From: Actinomycetes bacterium
GTDB lineage: Bacteria; Actinomycetota; Acidimicrobiia; Acidimicrobiales; Poriferisodalaceae
Direction: 5' to 3'
Assembly (NCBI GenBank): GCA_024228575.1
Contig: JAAETH010000054.1
Coordinates: 1-64,000 of the forward strand
Length of the DNA: 64,000 nucleotides
Each line of letters opens with the position of its first letter. Positions within the stretch are counted from its first letter, which is position 1. This document shows, in pieces, positions 27,751-35,862 of the stretch. A program made the position numbers and the translations under genes. The notes under the pieces are model-generated. The model was given only the letters and a program-made list of their open reading frames with translations, had not been told where the DNA came from and did no database searches.

Positions 27751-29436
27751 TCAGTCTTCCACGTTCCATTCGTCGATGAGTGTGTCGGCATCGACGAACT
27801 CATAACCGAGTGCGAGCATTCCATCCAGCACCTCACCCAACATCTGGGCGCCGAGGAATGGGTGGTAGAAGAACCCGGCGACGTTGTCGTCGACGACCAG
27901 ATGCATACGGGCCCGGTCGATCAGTTCGGCGGGCAGGATCGCGGCGTGTTGGTTGATTGCTTGTGGTTCGATGTTGCCGAGGTTCTCGGGCAGGACGAGT
28001 TCGCCGTAAGAATCGACGACCGGATACGGATACCACTGGTTGAAGAACAGGGCTTCGGGTGGAGCTGCGCCCGCGGGGAGGTGGTACATCGGGCGCTCGA
28101 AACGGGCCTCGAACATGGGGCTTGTTGTCACATAGTCGGCGGCGGAGGCGGCGTAGTGGGGGAACTCGAAGACCCTTGGTCGCTCGAGCCCTGCCGCCTC
28201 GAACTCCTCGAGCGCCTCGCTGATGCGGGCGGGTGTGGCATCGATCTTGGCCTGATGAAGCGGTCCGTCTTCGATGACGTGGTCGTTCTCGTCGATGTGG
28301 GCGGCGAAGAACTCGTAATCGTTGCCCGACACCCCGTCGAAGGGGTTTGGCGAGCTGCCGCGCTGGTGGGTGTAGCCGTGCAAGACGATGGTCCCACCAC
28401 GAAGCAGCATGTACTCGAGAGCATCGATGATCTCGGGGCTATCGGCGAGCCTGACCTCGGCACCGTAGTCCCACACCGCGTTCGGGTCGCGCCAGACCGG
28501 GTAGACACCGACCGAGAAGGCGATCTTGCGTCGCGCGAGTTCGTCGGCCACCGCCCGCAGATCGGCCGCGCTCGATGTGGGTCCGACGTCTTCGAGCCGA
28601 ACGAGAGCGCGATGCCTGGTCGTATGGTCTGGTCGCAGCAACGACAGCAACTGGTCGGCGAGAACCATGTACGAGAGATTTTCGCCGTGATACCTGAACG
28701 GGGTGTCTGCCAGGACGACGAACCGAGGCGACCGAACCGCCCACGGAATCGTTCTGCCGTCGTCCAGCACGGCCTCGGCGATGACGGCTGCGGCGGGTCC
28801 GGTCGAGCCGATGACACCGATGTACTCGCCGACGATGGGATGGACCGGTAGATCGGAGTCCTCGTAGCGCACTGCGACGATCGATTCGGGAACCGGAGTG
28901 CTGGCCGCGAGATGTTCCGAACCCGCCAGGTCTGGGTGACGACGAAGCAGCTGATCGAAGCCCGGGCCCATCCAGATGACCTTTGAGCCGGATGCCGCGA
29001 TGTCGTCGAGCAGGACGTTGGAGAATTGGTGTTCGGTCGATGTTGAGGTGATGACGATGAGGTCGCCGGTCGAGGCATCGCCGGACGTGTAGTCCGACTC
29101 GGGTGAGATCGACGAGGGGCCGAATGCCCCGACGAGGTTTGAGGTCATCATCGCCGCGGTCAGGCCCAGATGGCCGAACTCGTCGGCGCCGGTGTAAACG
29201 ATGAGCGTCGAGGGCCCGTCGGGGACGCTGGCGTTGTGGACGGGGTCGCGCTCACCTTCTGGATCTCGCGTCGCGTTTGCGGCGACCGATTCATCGAGGT
29301 CGCCGGCGGGTGTGTCGGGCGAGACCCAGGCGGCGGCTTCGAGCGATTCGTGCGCGGGCGTTTGGTCGAGATGCCGCAGCACCAAGGCCGCAACCGCCAC
29401 GGCGATGACGACCACGATCATGGTCGGTCGTTTCAC
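27751..29436 (-). CDS. DUF2334 protein, deacetylase-like, membrane-anchored (second copy)
   Basis: 561-aa protein with an N-terminal signal-anchor (MIVVVIAVAVAALVLRHL) and an extracytoplasmic region. After an N-terminal Rossmann-like part (VIWMGPGFDQLL), the DUF2334 domain shows LVRLEDVGP (Asp of the deacetylase-like metal site), a GTIVLHGYTHQ segment and VFEFPHYAAS. DUF2334 is related to polysaccharide deacetylases and its enzymology is little known. GTG 29436 overlaps the wecB stop as GTGA, which decides the start over ATG 29421. It ends the polysaccharide operon and is paralogous to the protein at 30572-32230. Confidence 0.82.
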   Translation of the reverse strand: MKRPTMIVVVIAVAVAALVLRHLDQTPAHESLEAAAWVSPDTPAGDLDESVAANATRDPEGERDPVHNASVPDGPSTLIVYTGADEFGHLGLTAAMMTSNLVGAFGPSSISPESDYTSGDASTGDLIVITSTSTEHQFSNVLLDDIAASGSKVIWMGPGFDQLLRRHPDLAGSEHLAASTPVPESIVAVRYEDSDLPVHPIVGEYIGVIGSTGPAAAVIAEAVLDDGRTIPWAVRSPRFVVLADTPFRYHGENLSYMVLADQLLSLLRPDHTTRHRALVRLEDVGPTSSAADLRAVADELARRKIAFSVGVYPVWRDPNAVWDYGAEVRLADSPEIIDALEYMLLRGGTIVLHGYTHQRGSSPNPFDGVSGNDYEFFAAHIDENDHVIEDGPLHQAKIDATPARISEALEEFEAAGLERPRVFEFPHYAASAADYVTTSPMFEARFERPMYHLPAGAAPPEALFFNQWYPYPVVDSYGELVLPENLGNIEPQAINQHAAILPAELIDRARMHLVVDDNVAGFFYHPFLGAQMLGEVLDGMLALGYEFVDADTLIDEWNVED

Positions 29437-30575
29437 GAGGCTCGTCCCAAGCGCGCGATCGGCGGCGAGAACTCTCGAATTGCCTCGCCGAGCAGTGATG
29501 AAACAATGCGGCGCGACGCCAGCCCATCGCCGTAGGGACTCGTGCCAACACACATCGAGCGATGGGCGACGGGATCGTCGAGCAGACGCGACACCTCAGA
29601 GATGATGTGATCCGAGTTGGTCCCGACGAGACGGGCAGCGCCAGACGAGACGGCCTCTGGTCGCTCGGTGACATCCCTCAACACGAGCACCGGCGTGTCG
29701 AGTGCGGGTGCCTCCTCCTGGATGCCGCCCGAGTCGGTCAGCGCCAGGTGTGCGCGTGTCAGCAGGGAAACCATCTCGGGATGGTCGACGGGTTCGATGA
29801 GGAACACGTTGTCGAGATTGCCGAGCAGCTCTCGCGCCACGGCACCGACGTTTGGGTTCGGATGCACCGGGTAGACGACTGCGAGGTCGGAGCGTTGCCT
29901 GGCGAGGTGGGCGACGGCGCCGAGGGCGTCGCGCAAGGGCTGGCCGAAGTTCTCCCGTCGGTGGGCGGTGAGAACCATCAACTTCGTGTGTGGGTCGAGT
30001 CGGTGAACCAGCGAGCGGGGCGACGGGGCGACTGCACGTTGGAAGTGCAGCGCATCGATGACCGTGTTGCCTGTCGTGACGATGTCGCGAGCGGGCACAC
30101 CCTCTGCCAGCAGGGCGTTGTGTGCCGCAGTTGTCGGGGCGAAGTGACGGTCGGCGACGTGGCCTGCGACGATGCGGTTGATCTCTTCTGGGAAGGGTTG
30201 GGTCTTGTCCCCCGATCGCAGACCGGCCTCGACGTGTCCGACCTTGACGCCGCTCCACGCTGCGCACAGGGCAGCGGCCGCGACGGTGGTGGTGTCGCCC
30301 TGAACCAGCATCCAGTCCGGTCGGGTCCTGGTGAGCACCGGCTCGACCGCCGTGAGAACCCGTTGGGCCACCTCGACCACGGTCTGGCCCGGCGTCATCA
30401 AGTCGAGATCGATGTCGGCAGACATGTCGTAGCTGTCCAAGACCTGTTGCACCAGCTCGCGATGCTGACCGGTGAGACAGACGAGATGATCGATGGCGCG
30501 CCTTCGCAACTCATGGACGACGGGCGCCATCTTGATGGCTTCTGGCCTGGTGCCGACGATGACAAGAATCCTCAA
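29433..30575 (-). CDS. wecB: UDP-N-acetylglucosamine 2-epimerase (non-hydrolysing)
   Basis: 380-aa GT-B-fold epimerase that interconverts UDP-GlcNAc and UDP-ManNAc. Family motifs are GTRPEAIKMAP at the N-terminus, VQGDTTT, HVEAGLRSGD, FPEEINR, TAHRREN and DSGGIQEEAP. The start is TTG 30575, inside the overlap TTGA with the upstream DUF2334 stop, with GGAG about 7 nt before; the longer ATG frame is antisense or out-of-frame material. Its place between two DUF2334 genes and behind a processive glycosyltransferase suggests it supplies ManNAc (or balances GlcNAc/ManNAc) for the polymer. Confidence 0.93.
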   Translation of the reverse strand: MRILVIVGTRPEAIKMAPVVHELRRRAIDHLVCLTGQHRELVQQVLDSYDMSADIDLDLMTPGQTVVEVAQRVLTAVEPVLTRTRPDWMLVQGDTTTVAAAALCAAWSGVKVGHVEAGLRSGDKTQPFPEEINRIVAGHVADRHFAPTTAAHNALLAEGVPARDIVTTGNTVIDALHFQRAVAPSPRSLVHRLDPHTKLMVLTAHRRENFGQPLRDALGAVAHLARQRSDLAVVYPVHPNPNVGAVARELLGNLDNVFLIEPVDHPEMVSLLTRAHLALTDSGGIQEEAPALDTPVLVLRDVTERPEAVSSGAARLVGTNSDHIISEVSRLLDDPVAHRSMCVGTSPYGDGLASRRIVSSLLGEAIREFSPPIARLGRAS

Positions 30576-32230
30576 CTGTTCATCTCCAGGATCAGCTGCG
30601 AGGGTGAGACGAACTCGACCCCATCGGCGAGCATGGCGTCGACCACATCGAGCAGCGGCTCGGGGTCGAGGTAGGGGTGGAAGAAGAGCGAGGCAACCGA
30701 GTCGCGAACAACACCGAGCCGGCGCGAGATCGCGACCAGCTCGTCGACACCTCGCGATGAGTGGTTGTTGTACCCGACCTCGATGTAGTTTCCCATGTTC
30801 TCTGGCAACACAAGCTCGCCGTAGAAGTCGACGACGGGGTAGGGGTACCACTGGTCATCGGCGACACGGTGGTTGGGTTCGCCTCGCAGGAGTCCGCCGA
30901 AATACATCGTGCGTTCATACCTTGCGTCGAACATGTCTTCGATACCCACGTAGGACTCCCAGTGGGCCGCGTAGTGGGGGAACTCGAAGACGGTTGGTCG
31001 ATCGAGCCCGGCATCGGCGAACTCGGCCAGCCCCCACACGATCCGGTCTGAAGTCCACGCGCTGTCGGCGATCGCTGGCGGGCCGTCGAGGACGACATTG
31101 TCATCATCATCGACGTGAGCGACATAGAACTCGAAGTCCTCACCGGAAGCACCGTGGTATGGGTTCGGCCCGTCTCCGAGCTGATGGGTGACACCGTGCA
31201 TGATGACGGTTCCACCCGCAGATTTCATGTATTCGAGCGCCGCGACCACCTCGGGCCGGTCTGCGAGGCGAATCGCGTGCCCCTCGTTGTAGCGCCCACG
31301 CGGGTCCATCCAGACGGGGTAGACGGCGATGCTGAACGGAACATCGCGGGCGGTGAGTTCGTCGGATATCCGCCGTAGGGCAGCGGGGTTCGCCGTCGGG
31401 CCGACATCCTCGAGGCGGACCATACCCCGATGGCGTTCGTCGTGTTCTGGCGCGAGCAGATCGAACAATGTGTCCGCCAACACGAGGCCGCGGTCGGCCT
31501 CGGTTGTGTAGGCAAACGGGGCCTCCGCAAGCCAGGTCAGGTTGTCGAACCGCAATGCGTACGGCGCTGCCAGGCTCGACCGGGCGCTGTCGGTCGCGGT
31601 AGCGAGGACCTCGGTTCCCGCCGATGCGGTCACCGCCGGCAGATCTCCGGCCCGCTGGTCGCGGGGCAACGATGTTCCGCGATAGTCGACGGCCAAAAGT
31701 CCGCTGTTTGGCGCGCCGACGCTCCACCCCAGTCGATCGAAGTAGTCGGGGGCCAGGGTCGCAATCTGATCGAGGCCACCGCCGAGCCACAAGGTTGGAC
31801 CACCATCGGACGTCCACCGAATCAGGTCGGTCGAGATTGGTGAGTTCTCGCCAGCCGACACGTAGACCACCAGGTCGCTGCCTGTTGCCGTCTCGGTGGT
31901 GATGGTGGCCGCATCGACGAAGGAGACCTCGCCGAAGTGTCCCAGCAGGTTGCCCACCATCACCACGGCCAGTTCGTGGTGGGGGTCGTTGGCGGTTGCG
32001 TCCCACGCAACAACAGCGTGTGTTGGGTTTGATCGTCGAGGCCGCAAGTCGGAGTTGAGGGTGTTGTCACCGACCGCGGATGGGCTTCCGATCTCTTGGT
32101 CGATTCGACCGGCGACCGGGCGAGAAAGGGCATCGCGACCGAAGACGAACACGAGGATGATGCCCACAAGAATCATCAGAACCGCCAATGGTGAGCCACT
32201 GCGTCGCCTGAGTGTCCGAGAGCGTCTCAT
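30572..32230 (-). CDS. DUF2334 protein, deacetylase-like, membrane-anchored (first copy)
   Basis: 552-aa protein with an N-terminal membrane anchor (VLMILVGIILVFVFG, about 16-30) and an extracytoplasmic two-part body. The first half resembles a Rossmann-like domain (VVAWDATANDPHHELAVV). The DUF2334 half contains MVRLEDVGP, VIMHGVTHQLG and VFEFPHYAAHW, the counterparts of the metal and catalytic motifs in polysaccharide deacetylases. ATG 32230 overlaps the glycosyltransferase stop (ATGA). The open frame runs another 1400 nt upstream, but that part is a shadow of the GT2 gene. It probably modifies the polymer made by the neighbouring synthase; this is inference. Confidence 0.82.
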   Translation of the reverse strand: MRRSRTLRRRSGSPLAVLMILVGIILVFVFGRDALSRPVAGRIDQEIGSPSAVGDNTLNSDLRPRRSNPTHAVVAWDATANDPHHELAVVMVGNLLGHFGEVSFVDAATITTETATGSDLVVYVSAGENSPISTDLIRWTSDGGPTLWLGGGLDQIATLAPDYFDRLGWSVGAPNSGLLAVDYRGTSLPRDQRAGDLPAVTASAGTEVLATATDSARSSLAAPYALRFDNLTWLAEAPFAYTTEADRGLVLADTLFDLLAPEHDERHRGMVRLEDVGPTANPAALRRISDELTARDVPFSIAVYPVWMDPRGRYNEGHAIRLADRPEVVAALEYMKSAGGTVIMHGVTHQLGDGPNPYHGASGEDFEFYVAHVDDDDNVVLDGPPAIADSAWTSDRIVWGLAEFADAGLDRPTVFEFPHYAAHWESYVGIEDMFDARYERTMYFGGLLRGEPNHRVADDQWYPYPVVDFYGELVLPENMGNYIEVGYNNHSSRGVDELVAISRRLGVVRDSVASLFFHPYLDPEPLLDVVDAMLADGVEFVSPSQLILEMNS

Positions 32231-33615
32231 GAGGCGACGTGGGTTTCCCGGGCGGGTTTGACGGTTCTGCCGATCTCGTTGACAACACCGGACACCGGCG
32301 AGACGTTGGGTCGTGGACCAAACATCGCCGGCGGGAAGGCGACCGGTGGTGTGGCCGATGAGGCGGAATGTTCCTCGTCGATTCGGGCTGTCTTGGTCCA
32401 CCCAGAGCGTCCGATCGCCTGGCGCGTCACGGCCCGCCAGCCTGCGATGAACCAGATCCAGGTGAAGAAGGCGTAGGCGTGGGCGAGGAACAGGCCCCGC
32501 AGAAAGCCCACGTTGGGTTCTGTCTTCCAGTAGGCGACGGCGACGAGTGGTGTGGCCAGGAAGCCGATGAGGTACCACCATGGGACGATCGGTCCCGCCG
32601 CCATCGCCTCGAGAGTGGCCGCCGGTTCCAGTGATGCGCTGCGAAGAAGCGACAGCGCGGCGATCAGGATCGGGACCGAGATGAGCAACATCGCGGCGGG
32701 GAAGAGCAGGTGCAGGGTCAGATCGAGCCTCGCTCGCAGACGCTGGGGTGATCGCCAAATGGCAGGAAGTGTCGGCCAACACTGCAGATGGCCCTGGAAC
32801 CACCTGGTTCGTTGGCGCAGCAGATGACGCCCGTCGTGTACGCCTTGTTGATGTACTGCCACGTCGTTGTCGAAGATGGCCCGCCAGCCGTTGATGCCGA
32901 GGCGAAGGCCGAGGTCGAGATCCTCTGTGAGATTGTGGCTCCACGGGGTGGTGCCCAGCTCCTGAAGGGCCACAAGTCTGACGAACTGCCCATTGCCTCC
33001 GAGGCCGGTACTTCCAAGTGTGTTGCGGCCCCTCTGGAAGATGCTCGCGTACCCCGCAAACTCGACATCTTGCATGCGCGCGAGCCACGACCTGGCCCGG
33101 TTCGAGATTCGTACCGCTATCTGCACGGCTCCGATCCGGGGATCGGTAAACCACGACCTGACAACTCCCAGTGTCGCCCCGTCGACACTGCTGTCTGCGT
33201 CGAATACGGCGATGATGACCGATGCAGGGTCGATTCCTTCGGCGGCCACCGCTTGGTTGACGATCGCGAAGCCGGCGTTCAGAGCATCGCCCTTCCCCAA
33301 GCGAGCCTCGGGCAGGTGCCTGCGGTGGACGAAGACCCGCGGGTGGCCCAGCTGCTCGACCAGTTCGGGCGTGCCGTCGGTCGAGGCGTCGTCGATGACG
33401 AGAACCCTGACGGTTGGTCCCATCGAAACCAAGGAGAGGACCGTGTCGACGACAACGAGGCCTTCGTCGAGGCAGGGAACGAGACATACGATGTCGACCG
33501 GGGCCTGCTGTTGAGGGCGTTGTGGGGCGCGCGGTCGAGCGACCAAGCCCATCAACAAGGCGTAGAGCGGGCCCACCAGGCCGATCGCCAGAACGACGAT
33601 CCATGCGGTCGACAT
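32227..33615 (-). CDS. Processive family 2 glycosyltransferase (polysaccharide synthase)
   Basis: 462-aa membrane GT2. One N-terminal helix (WIVVLAIGLVGPLYALLMGL) is followed by the catalytic domain with VLVIDDASTDGT, VFDADSSVD (DxD), LTEDLDLGLRL (catalytic Asp) and RQRTRWFQGH (the QxxRW signature of processive enzymes such as PgaC, BcsA and hyaluronan synthase). Three or more C-terminal helices follow, so it should polymerise and export a beta-linked sugar chain. ATG 33615 shares one base with the stop of a small upstream ORF (TGATG). The sugar is unknown; the adjacent wecB points to GlcNAc or ManNAc. Confidence 0.9.
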   Translation of the reverse strand: MSTAWIVVLAIGLVGPLYALLMGLVARPRAPQRPQQQAPVDIVCLVPCLDEGLVVVDTVLSLVSMGPTVRVLVIDDASTDGTPELVEQLGHPRVFVHRRHLPEARLGKGDALNAGFAIVNQAVAAEGIDPASVIIAVFDADSSVDGATLGVVRSWFTDPRIGAVQIAVRISNRARSWLARMQDVEFAGYASIFQRGRNTLGSTGLGGNGQFVRLVALQELGTTPWSHNLTEDLDLGLRLGINGWRAIFDNDVAVHQQGVHDGRHLLRQRTRWFQGHLQCWPTLPAIWRSPQRLRARLDLTLHLLFPAAMLLISVPILIAALSLLRSASLEPAATLEAMAAGPIVPWWYLIGFLATPLVAVAYWKTEPNVGFLRGLFLAHAYAFFTWIWFIAGWRAVTRQAIGRSGWTKTARIDEEHSASSATPPVAFPPAMFGPRPNVSPVSGVVNEIGRTVKPARETHVAS

Positions 33616-33779
33616 CAGATCGTGGATTGCCTACGGGCTCGCCTGTAGGCAATGCCATATCCTGACATCACCGCCACGAGTGTGGCCAGGGAGGTCGGCA
33701 CCGATTCGGCGAACGACAGTTGGGGAGCTACCTGTACGGCGAGGATTCCGACCGAGGATGTGAACGCTGCAGAGTACAT
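33615..33779 (-). CDS. Small membrane peptide coupled to the GT2 synthase
   Basis: 54-aa frame from ATG 33779, stop TGA at 33615-33617 sharing its A with the GT2 ATG (TGATG). A hydrophobic segment of about 18 residues (SLATLVAVMSGYGIAYRR region) is followed by a basic tail RRARRQ, which fits one membrane helix with a cytoplasmic C-terminus. PgaC-type synthases need a small membrane partner (PgaD), so this may play that part. No strong ribosome site is visible before the ATG and I know no homologue. Confidence 0.45.
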   Translation of the reverse strand: MYSAAFTSSVGILAVQVAPQLSFAESVPTSLATLVAVMSGYGIAYRRARRQSTI

Positions 33780-33868
33780 CGAAGAACTTGGCCTTGTGGC
33801 GATTCGCCGGTGACTCTACACCAGCACAGAGTCGAAGAGCACTCCCCGATTCGTTGTTGTGGGACGCT

Positions 33869-34894
33869 CTATGTGGTCGAGAACCATGTCCGGATGATCG
33901 ATTCGGCGGGTTTGCCTCGAGGCGTGTAGTCGGTGGCCTGGTCCTCATCGGTGTCGGCGAGGTCGTCCCATGCCCAGATCAGCACACCACCGAAGGTGTC
34001 TCGTCGCTGCCAAACCCGCGCCGCAGCGGCAAATGCCGCTTCCTGCTCCTCATCGGCTGGTTGTGAGCCGGTGGCCCAATCCCAAGGTGCGGTCGTTGCT
34101 CCCTCGACACTGCGATAGCCGAGTTCGGCCAGCAGGATGGGTCGATCCCAACGCAGCGACATGGTGTCCAGCAGGGCGGCAACGGGCTGCCACGCCTCGA
34201 CCAGGGCGTCGACATCGGTCGTGGGAACCTCCGACAGTGGCCAATACGCACTGACCCCGATCAGGTCGAGATCGTCCCAGAAGTCGACCGAGCCAACATC
34301 GGTGAAGTTGACCGAGTAGGTGAGCGAACCCGAGAACCGCTCGCGTAGGTCGGCGATGAGCGACCGCCAGCGCTCGTCGTATTGCTCGAGTGAGATGAAC
34401 TCGGTCCCGACGACGATCAGCTCGGCCCCGGACCGTTCCGCCCGGTCGGCGATCTCGGCCATCAGTTGGCCGTAGCAGGTGAACCATCGGTCGAGATCGG
34501 CTGGTTCGAGTTCGCCCCGGTAGGTCCCGTCCGACACATCGACCATCGCCTTGATGGCCACATGCAGCCCTGCGTCGGCGGCGAGCTCCGTCACACGGTC
34601 GAGGCCATCGAGGTGAGCCGTTTCGATGGTCGGTTCAGGGCAGCTGGCCTTCGTGTTGGGCTGGTACCAGGTGATCGTGAACGAGATCCAGTTTGCACCT
34701 GTCGCTGCGATTTGTGTGATGTGCTCGGCGTTCTCGACCCTGCTGTATCCGTCCTCGGCCCAAACCGGGTAGCTGATGCCGTGGATGATCGAAGTCGGCC
34801 GTTGATCTGGGGTCGAGCGAAGGTCCGGCTCGCTGCACGCCGCTAGGCACACACACATGGCGAGGATCACCGAGATGGTGGATGTGCTGCGCAT
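33869..34894 (-). CDS. GH113-like glycoside hydrolase lipoprotein
   Basis: 341-aa predicted lipoprotein (lipobox LAAC, Cys near residue 20) with a TIM-barrel resembling family GH113 mannanases. It opens GISYPVWAEDGYS and has WISFTITWYQP, VGTEFISLE (general acid Glu) and LLAELGYRS (nucleophile Glu), then ILIWAWDD near the end. It would sit outside the cell and cleave a beta-mannan or related chain. It precedes the polysaccharide operon on the same strand, separated by about 90 bp from the small membrane ORF. A hydrolase beside a synthase and deacetylase-like proteins recalls PgaB and PelA logic. Family assignment is from motifs only. Confidence 0.75.
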   Translation of the reverse strand: MRSTSTISVILAMCVCLAACSEPDLRSTPDQRPTSIIHGISYPVWAEDGYSRVENAEHITQIAATGANWISFTITWYQPNTKASCPEPTIETAHLDGLDRVTELAADAGLHVAIKAMVDVSDGTYRGELEPADLDRWFTCYGQLMAEIADRAERSGAELIVVGTEFISLEQYDERWRSLIADLRERFSGSLTYSVNFTDVGSVDFWDDLDLIGVSAYWPLSEVPTTDVDALVEAWQPVAALLDTMSLRWDRPILLAELGYRSVEGATTAPWDWATGSQPADEEQEAAFAAAARVWQRRDTFGGVLIWAWDDLADTDEDQATDYTPRGKPAESIIRTWFSTT

Positions 34895-34974: not shown

Positions 34975-35862
34975 CTACCGGGTCAGGTCGGTTCTCGAGG
35001 GTGGGTCTGCGCCGATTCTCTGAACCGTCACTGCTGCTACTCGCCCCGCGAAGTCGAGGATGCCGACCCAGTCGTCGAGCAAGACGTCGTCGAGAGCGGT
35101 GTTGGTCCGTACGCCGGCATCGTGGAGGCACACCAGGACGCCACCACAGAACGAATCGCCGGCACCTACCGTGTCGACGACATCGATTCGCTGAGCCGGG
35201 GCGGATGCCGAGCCAGCCGGAGTGTGAACGATCGCACCTTCCGACGTGGTGACGATGAGCGCACGCACACCACCGTCGAAGAGGGTGGTTGCGATTTGTT
35301 CGGGTGTACGGCCCGGGAAGATCCAGTCGAGATCGGCGTCCGAAGCCCTCAATACCCCGGTGTTGGTGAGCCACCGCTGGAACCAGGTCATCCAGTCGGG
35401 CCGTCCCGCCGAACCGATGATCTGTGGTCTCACGTTCGGGTCGAGAGAGACCAGTCCGTCGTGTGTGGTGGCGACGTCGGCCAGGACGGTTGCAGCCGGG
35501 CGACGAAACAGGCCGAGTGTTCCACCGTGAAGGATGTGAGGCCCGGGTCCGAGTGCGCTCAGGTCGGGTGGCTCGAGCATCGTGTCGGCGGTGCCGTCGC
35601 CCTGGAAGGTGAACACAGGGGGATCGCCTTCGACGATGGCCAGGCAGGTCGGTTCATCGCCGCGCTGGGCGATGGTCAGGTCGACGCCCGAGTCGGCCAG
35701 ATGTCGCCAGATCAGGTCGCCGAAAGGGTCGGTCGACACCCGCCCGAGGAACGCGGTCGGTGTTCCCAGGCGCGCTGCCGCGATGGCAGTGTTCATCGGC
35801 CCGCCACCCGGCCTTGCGTCGGGCACCAGATCGACGAGAGCTTCGCCCGCACAGATGATCAT
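34975..35862 (-). CDS. PfkB-family carbohydrate kinase, fructokinase-like
   Basis: 295-aa ribokinase-fold sugar kinase. It starts IICAGEALVDL and has the N-terminal PfkB signature GGGPMNTAIAAARLG and the C-terminal signature DVVDTVGAGDSFCGG, which holds the catalytic Asp and the anion hole. VSLDPNVRPQ is typical of fructokinases (which phosphorylate D-fructose to fructose 6-phosphate). ATG 35862 was chosen because the open frame upstream covers the promoter of the divergent gene. The exact sugar is not provable here. Confidence 0.88.
   Translation of the reverse strand: MIICAGEALVDLVPDARPGGGPMNTAIAAARLGTPTAFLGRVSTDPFGDLIWRHLADSGVDLTIAQRGDEPTCLAIVEGDPPVFTFQGDGTADTMLEPPDLSALGPGPHILHGGTLGLFRRPAATVLADVATTHDGLVSLDPNVRPQIIGSAGRPDWMTWFQRWLTNTGVLRASDADLDWIFPGRTPEQIATTLFDGGVRALIVTTSEGAIVHTPAGSASAPAQRIDVVDTVGAGDSFCGGVLVCLHDAGVRTNTALDDVLLDDWVGILDFAGRVAAVTVQRIGADPPSRTDLTR

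Follow-up and report, generated by a model that had tools for sequence, protein, structure and literature searches.

Six genes on the minus strand of a 64,000-nt stretch of DNA (assembly GCA_024228575.1, contig JAAETH010000054.1, positions 1 to 64,000; hereafter the window) from an actinobacterium of the family Poriferisodalaceae almost certainly build and trim a secreted amino-sugar polymer, which is probably made of N-acetylmannosamine (ManNAc). We consider it likely that they form a self-contained synthase-dependent exopolysaccharide system, in which WecB would supply uridine diphosphate (UDP)-ManNAc, a family 2 glycosyltransferase (GT2) would make the polymer, two DUF2334 proteins would deacetylate it and a GH113 lipoprotein would cut it. 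A dedicated system of this kind had been proposed in the initial annotation; it is well supported by the conserved gene set, by natural gene fusions and by the fold of the processive GT2, whereas the identity of the sugar is what we infer.

The operon and its proteins

From 5′ to 3′, the minus-strand genes encode a secreted GH113-family lipoprotein (33869..34894, 341 aa), a 54-aa single-pass membrane protein (33615..33779), a membrane GT2 polysaccharide synthase (32227..33615, 462 aa), the anchored, predicted extracellular polysaccharide deacetylase DUF2334-A (30572..32230, 552 aa), the non-hydrolysing UDP-N-acetylglucosamine (UDP-GlcNAc) 2-epimerase WecB (29433..30575, 380 aa, TTG start at 30575) and a second anchored, predicted deacetylase, DUF2334-B (27751..29436, 561 aa, GTG start at 29436). 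This layout agreed with the initial annotation, and the overlap of the last five genes at every junction (TGATG, ATGA, TTGA and GTGA) was read directly in the sequence; the GH113 gene does not overlap and ends 89 nt before the 54-aa open reading frame (ORF). Pfam and NCBIfam scans confirmed the families of all the genes except the 54-aa ORF, which had no match.

The GT2 (GT2 families, 1e-23) carries the signatures D139-A-D141, T230-E231-D232 and Q268-R-T-R271-W272, which are fully or almost fully conserved in 22 homologues, and its AlphaFold model (predicted local distance difference test, pLDDT, 86) found its best PDB folds in hyaluronan and cellulose synthases (E about 1e-13). Because of this motif and this fold, its assignment as a processive synthase, and not a lipid glycosyltransferase, is well supported. 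An alternative in which the GT2 glycosylates a lipid or a protein, with DUF2334 and GH113 as neighbours by chance, could appeal to the Pfam family Glyco_transf_21, matched weakly at 31 bits, but it is hardly credible in view of the invariant Q-x-x-R-W motif and the synthase fold, and is largely refuted by the conserved co-location and the natural DUF2334-GT2 fusions described below. Lipid glycosylation, named in the initial annotation as the grouping that would speak against the system, was rejected on the same motif and fold.

The best NCBIfam model for the GT2 was NF053846, 'XrtP-associated glycosyltransferase', with 276 bits, about half of the cut-off of 520; since, in addition, no exosortase was found in this genome, the exosortase link hinted at by the model was rejected for it. 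The next-best model, the PgaC/IcaA equivalog TIGR03937, gave 71.3 bits against a cut-off of 422. In a tree, the GT2 proteins of the locus grouped in a clade of their own (99/96), separate from PgaC, BcsA and NfrB, with PgaC and BcsA on long branches; the window GT2 fell outside the NfrB clade and has no MshEN domain. PgaC was the nearest experimentally characterised relative among those compared (27% identity), and the sequence indicates that the GT2 is a distant relative of it.

Both DUF2334 proteins match the Pfam family of that name (1e-42 for A, 1e-43 for B). A sequence search against the PDB returned nothing, and their likeness to PelA and to deacetylases of carbohydrate esterase (CE) family 4 comes from the fold search only: with the AlphaFold model of DUF2334-A (pLDDT 85, predicted template modelling score 0.84), the best Foldseek match in the PDB was PelA of Pseudomonas thermotolerans (9cgy, E 1.8e-10, 554 columns), followed by many CE4 deacetylases (E about 3e-7). 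By fold, DUF2334-A has the PelA-like architecture of an α/β domain and a CE4-like domain. E274, D275, H345, H349, H419 and H518 are invariant in 28 homologues, and the motifs L-E274-D275, H345-G-x-T-H349 and H518-P stand at the strand ends that in CE4/CE21 enzymes bear the base, the metal triad and the acid (PMC12022489, PMC13254593). An acidic base, an Asp-His-His metal triad and a catalytic His of the CE4/CE18/CE21 kind could be assigned in this way, by motif and strand position, to E274, D275, H345, H349 and H518, a putative metal site of the kind that the initial annotation had suggested seeking in a structure model. DUF2334-A is probably an N-terminally anchored extracellular deacetylase.

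DUF2334-B is 44% identical to DUF2334-A and has the motifs LEDVG, HGYTHQ, PHY and YHP, so that both copies keep the catalytic motifs. In the DUF2334 tree, copy B grouped with that of locus L050 (100% support) and the A/B duplication formed a small clade with L050 and L036, while tandem copies arose separately in Streptosporangiaceae and in Nitrosomonas; two deacetylase paralogues in one operon are therefore less unusual than had been thought.

WecB scored 435.9 bits with TIGR00236 (cut-off 210) and matched Escherichia coli WecB (1vgv) at 1e-102, with the active-site motifs RPEAIKMAP, GDTTT, HVEAGLR, PFPEE and HRREN aligned; a second, weaker epimerase is encoded elsewhere in the genome. UDP-ManNAc has no other obvious use here, because a search of the genome turned up no ManNAc transferase of the WecG/TagA type and no dehydrogenase recurred among the neighbours in the loci. 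Its use for linkage units of the wall teichoic acid or enterobacterial common antigen type was rejected, as the genome has no WecG/TagA family member.

The lipoprotein (lipobox LAAC) matched the Pfam GH113 profile with 160.8 bits (cut-off 27; 6e-47) and has an endo-β-1,4-mannanase fold; its nearest solved structures were the GH113 mannanases 4cd6 and 3civ (2e-29), and its two glutamates, in the motifs VGTEF and LLAELGY, align to the catalytic ones in VGCEM and FMEVG of these enzymes. It is predicted from sequence to act extracellularly, cutting or trimming the polymer. GH113 enzymes cut β-1,4-mannan.

The 54-aa ORF, directly upstream of the GT2 gene, is a real gene and not a chance reading frame, since its same-position homologue in locus L028 (MYSSGMVGVAGGIFAVQFAPQ...) aligned to it with a score of 63.5, compared to a maximum of 25 in 2000 shuffles, and since a hydrophobic ORF of 45-110 aa lies just upstream of 52 of 69 GT2 genes but of only 3 of 199 control genes. 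Across 38 homologues of the small ORF from Streptomyces, substitution rates at codon positions 1, 2 and 3 were 0.28, 0.22 and 0.49, highest at position 3. The small-protein family is fast evolving. The window protein matched no family in the Pfam and NCBIfam scans, PgaD/IcaD included; from its sequence and place it may be a synthase subunit.

In Micromonosporaceae the small protein (about 55 aa) carries a sortase-type sorting signal, LPVTG (e.g., SLPVTGS) followed by a helix and a basic tail. Proteins of this type stand just upstream of the GT2 in L042, L084, L095, L099, L100, L105 and L108, and the small protein of L029 (12252-12440) ends in LAFTG; they could be wall anchors or degenerate derivatives of such anchors. 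These signals, textbook in Micromonosporaceae, together with the one sortase gene of the window's genome, could argue that the product is a wall- or protein-linked glycan (a secondary wall polymer), for which the small membrane protein, with an LPXTG-like motif in some relatives, would serve as acceptor or anchor. We regard this as improbable, given that the window protein has neither an LPXTG-type motif nor LAFTG in its sequence, that the recurring neighbours included no recognised sortase gene and that a processive GT2 needs no acceptor protein.

Conservation of the locus

An alignment of six DUF2334 sequences, used to scan named genomes, identified 204 relatives, and the locus counts were taken from the best 80 of these 204, with wecB, GT2 and GH113 recorded when a tblastn match above 150 bits lay within 10 kb of DUF2334. 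wecB was found in 74/80 loci, GT2 in 67/80 and both in 64/80 independent loci; GH113 was also present in 49/80, all of them in Streptomycetaceae or Thermomonosporaceae. GT2 and wecB mostly stand side by side, with a median gap of 82 bp, and the DUF2334 and GH113 genes are contiguous or overlapping (median gap -4). Families with the locus include Streptomycetaceae (at least 45 genomes; examples of Streptomyces with the locus are S. netropsis and S. cinnamoneus, L077/L097), Micromonosporaceae, Thermomonosporaceae, Streptosporangiaceae and Frankiaceae, and one copy is carried on a Streptomyces plasmid. The recurrence of the gene set in other actinobacteria, on which the initial annotation had made its proposal depend, was thus observed.

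Four genomes of one other actinobacterial family, in a sample taken at phylum level, had DUF2334 and GT2 in one open frame of 962-1209 aa (L121 6943-9831, L122 6058-9582, L123 4773-8402 and L124 6429-9527), with wecB beside the fusion in three of the four (L121-L123), and in two genomes of a further family GT2, wecB and DUF2334 are consecutive. The natural fusions argue strongly for a joint action of deacetylase and synthase.

In the order to which the window belongs, the system occurs sporadically: a strong DUF2334 match (>130 bits) occurred in 4 of 198 other genomes, and a GT2 match with E < 1e-200 only in the same four. Among five genomes of the same family, none had the GT2 and one had a weak DUF2334 match. 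As the closest family relatives are without the system, this suggests horizontal spread or loss of the locus. The source genome (960 contigs) totals 6.15 Mb, roughly double the 2.6-3.6 Mb of the five same-family genomes.

In diderms, the synthase is a different one. In 10/10 diderm loci (Nitrosomonas, Holophagaceae, Myxococcota) DUF2334 was paired with an NfrB-type synthase in place of the actinobacterial GT2, and the two diderm synthases sampled with NCBIfam exceeded the threshold score of an NfrB-related model and contain a cyclic di-GMP (c-di-GMP)-binding domain. Loci with DUF2334, wecB and an NfrB-family c-di-GMP-binding synthase from Nitrosomonas and Holophagaceae are L040 (14589-16208), L046 (2277-4415) and L049 (3965-5581 and 6082-9483). 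L049 also encodes a large tetratricopeptide repeat protein that weakly matches the phage-receptor model PRK09782.

Two further neighbours were recorded. A secreted β-sandwich protein resembling GH16 and 3-keto-disaccharide hydrolases is encoded next to the locus in some 22 of the 80 relatives (e.g., L044 5977-6645, L030 4486-5262, L037 7096-7785) and was not found in the window's genome, in a search without a positive control. A gene for a PfkB-type sugar kinase (window 34975-35862, minus strand) precedes the GH113 gene by 80 nt on the same strand; it was not seen among the recurring neighbours of the locus relatives.

The sugar of the polymer

In the route that we infer (its sugar, its activities, the role of the small protein and the division of labour between the two deacetylases), WecB would turn cytoplasmic UDP-GlcNAc into UDP-ManNAc, and the GT2 would polymerise it, most likely to a ManNAc or mixed GlcNAc/ManNAc chain, and extrude the chain through a membrane channel of its own; the 54-aa protein would probably act as a small subunit. 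Outside the cell, the two anchored DUF2334 proteins would take off some N-acetyl groups of the emerging chain, yielding a partly cationic, cell-associated polymer, which the GH113 lipoprotein would cleave, either setting its length or releasing it.

Three lines point to ManNAc, none of them conclusively. First, wecB is almost as strictly kept as DUF2334, and a WecG/TagA-type user of UDP-ManNAc was not found in the window's genome. Second, the diderm DUF2334 synthases are NfrB-like, and E. coli NfrB has been inferred to polymerise UDP-ManNAc made by WecB (PMC8669469, PMC8669472). Third, the nearest functional analogue, the Listeria Pss system, makes a β-1,4-ManNAc polymer with α-1,6-galactose, and its deacetylase is required for cell-associated exopolysaccharide (PMC6307706); the mannan activity of GH113 would fit a β-1,4-ManNAc chain such as that of Listeria.

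The same machine could instead make a GlcNAc polymer (PNAG- or chitin-like, where PNAG is poly-N-acetylglucosamine) or a GlcNAc/ManNAc co-polymer with wecB supplying one of the two sugars. PgaC is a closer relative of the GT2 than NfrB is, and the GT2 fold also matches the GlcNAc-using hyaluronan and chitin synthases. However, a universal precursor such as UDP-GlcNAc requires no dedicated gene, whereas wecB is retained as consistently as the synthase (74/80 loci), and the partner hydrolase comes from a mannanase family, so that we judge this alternative unlikely, though more serious than a wall-linked product.

Several points weigh against a deacetylated ManNAc polymer. The polymer is predicted here from genes and models; WecB equilibrates GlcNAc and ManNAc, and the GT2 could thus use either or both; PgaC, its nearest characterised relative among those compared, is a GlcNAc polymerase; and in a few loci with GT2 and DUF2334, wecB was not found within the flanks examined. 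As for the deacetylation, DUF2334 keeps a Glu where CE4 enzymes have the base Asp, and in L030 and L031 the DUF2334 copies have lost the first His (to Glu, EGYTHQ) and the last His (to Asp, FYDP) and still stand in the locus; judging from their sequences, these two are perhaps altered or inactive enzymes.

Relation to known systems and meaning of the locus

Like the operon, the Pga/Ica (PNAG) systems combine a PgaC-like GT2, a deacetylase, a small membrane partner and a hydrolase function, but the operon contains wecB and its deacetylases belong to another sequence family: neither a PgaD/IcaD partner nor a PF01522-type PgaB/IcaB was found, the 54-aa protein matching no family and the deacetylases DUF2334 only. 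Pel shares the anchored deacetylase with α/β and CE domains and, in Bacillus cereus, a separate hydrolase (PelADA) (PMC12022489, PMC13254593), but works with PelF, PelD/E/G and UDP-N-acetylgalactosamine, whereas Pfam and NCBIfam found no PelF, PelG, PelD or PelE in the operon, whose synthase is the GT2, with no other transferase.

Pss of Listeria monocytogenes (pssABCDE, PssZ; PMC6307706, PMC4125290), compared by description only, has an IcaA-like GT2, the dedicated deacetylase PssB, a hydrolase nearby and a ManNAc backbone; unlike it, the operon includes wecB and a hydrolase of family GH113. Bacillus subtilis YdaJKLMN likewise joins a putative hydrolase and a GT2 to an exopolysaccharide, without wecB (PMC5422440, PMC13274460). 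A BcsB-like subunit and a degenerate GGDEF c-di-GMP receptor, which Pss possesses and by which Pss and Yda were assessed, were found by Pfam in no operon gene. In control searches, a DUF2334 match was seen in the B. subtilis genome and none was reported in E. coli. The former is presumably YdaL. The E. coli NfrB/NfrA system with WecB (the N4 glycan receptor) resembles the operon in its GT2 synthase and in the UDP-ManNAc supply, which the operon has; the window GT2 differs in its lineage and in having neither the MshEN domain nor an outer-membrane pore beside it.

As tested, the operon is not a member of Pga, Pel, Pss (by description) or Nfr, a defining part of each being absent. Its logic is not entirely new: Pss of Listeria, Yda of Bacillus, Nfr and Pel operate in a similar way, and Pss, Yda and Nfr/WecB already pair a GT2 with similar partners. 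The initial suggestion of a Pga- and Pel-like logic carried out by different families held for the logic, but less so for the families, as DUF2334 has the two-domain architecture of PelA and a CE4-type metal motif and the GT2 appears distantly related to PgaC. The combination of a PgaC-like GT2, DUF2334, wecB, a small membrane protein and GH113 appears undescribed: no description of the locus (as DUF2334 exopolysaccharide, exosortase XrtP or a Streptomyces wecB/GH113 locus) was found in the open literature searched, a scope outside which most subscription journals lie, and DUF2334 is named there in a single paper, and not together with exopolysaccharide.

More tentatively, and with somewhat less than even confidence, the DUF2334 and wecB module may define an unnamed class of poly-ManNAc synthases, with its own synthase lineage, a small membrane subunit and a ManNAc-polymer-cutting GH113 in actinobacteria, and with the NfrB lineage in diderms. 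We know of no GH113 enzyme with that cutting activity. Since the two kinds of locus have deacetylase and epimerase in common but differ in the synthase, the actinobacterial locus is tied to the Nfr glycan, the receptor of phage N4. The analysis also gives DUF2334 a testable function, that of an extracellular deacetylase of a ManNAc-type polymer, and points to an apparently undescribed exopolysaccharide locus in at least 45 Streptomycetaceae genomes.

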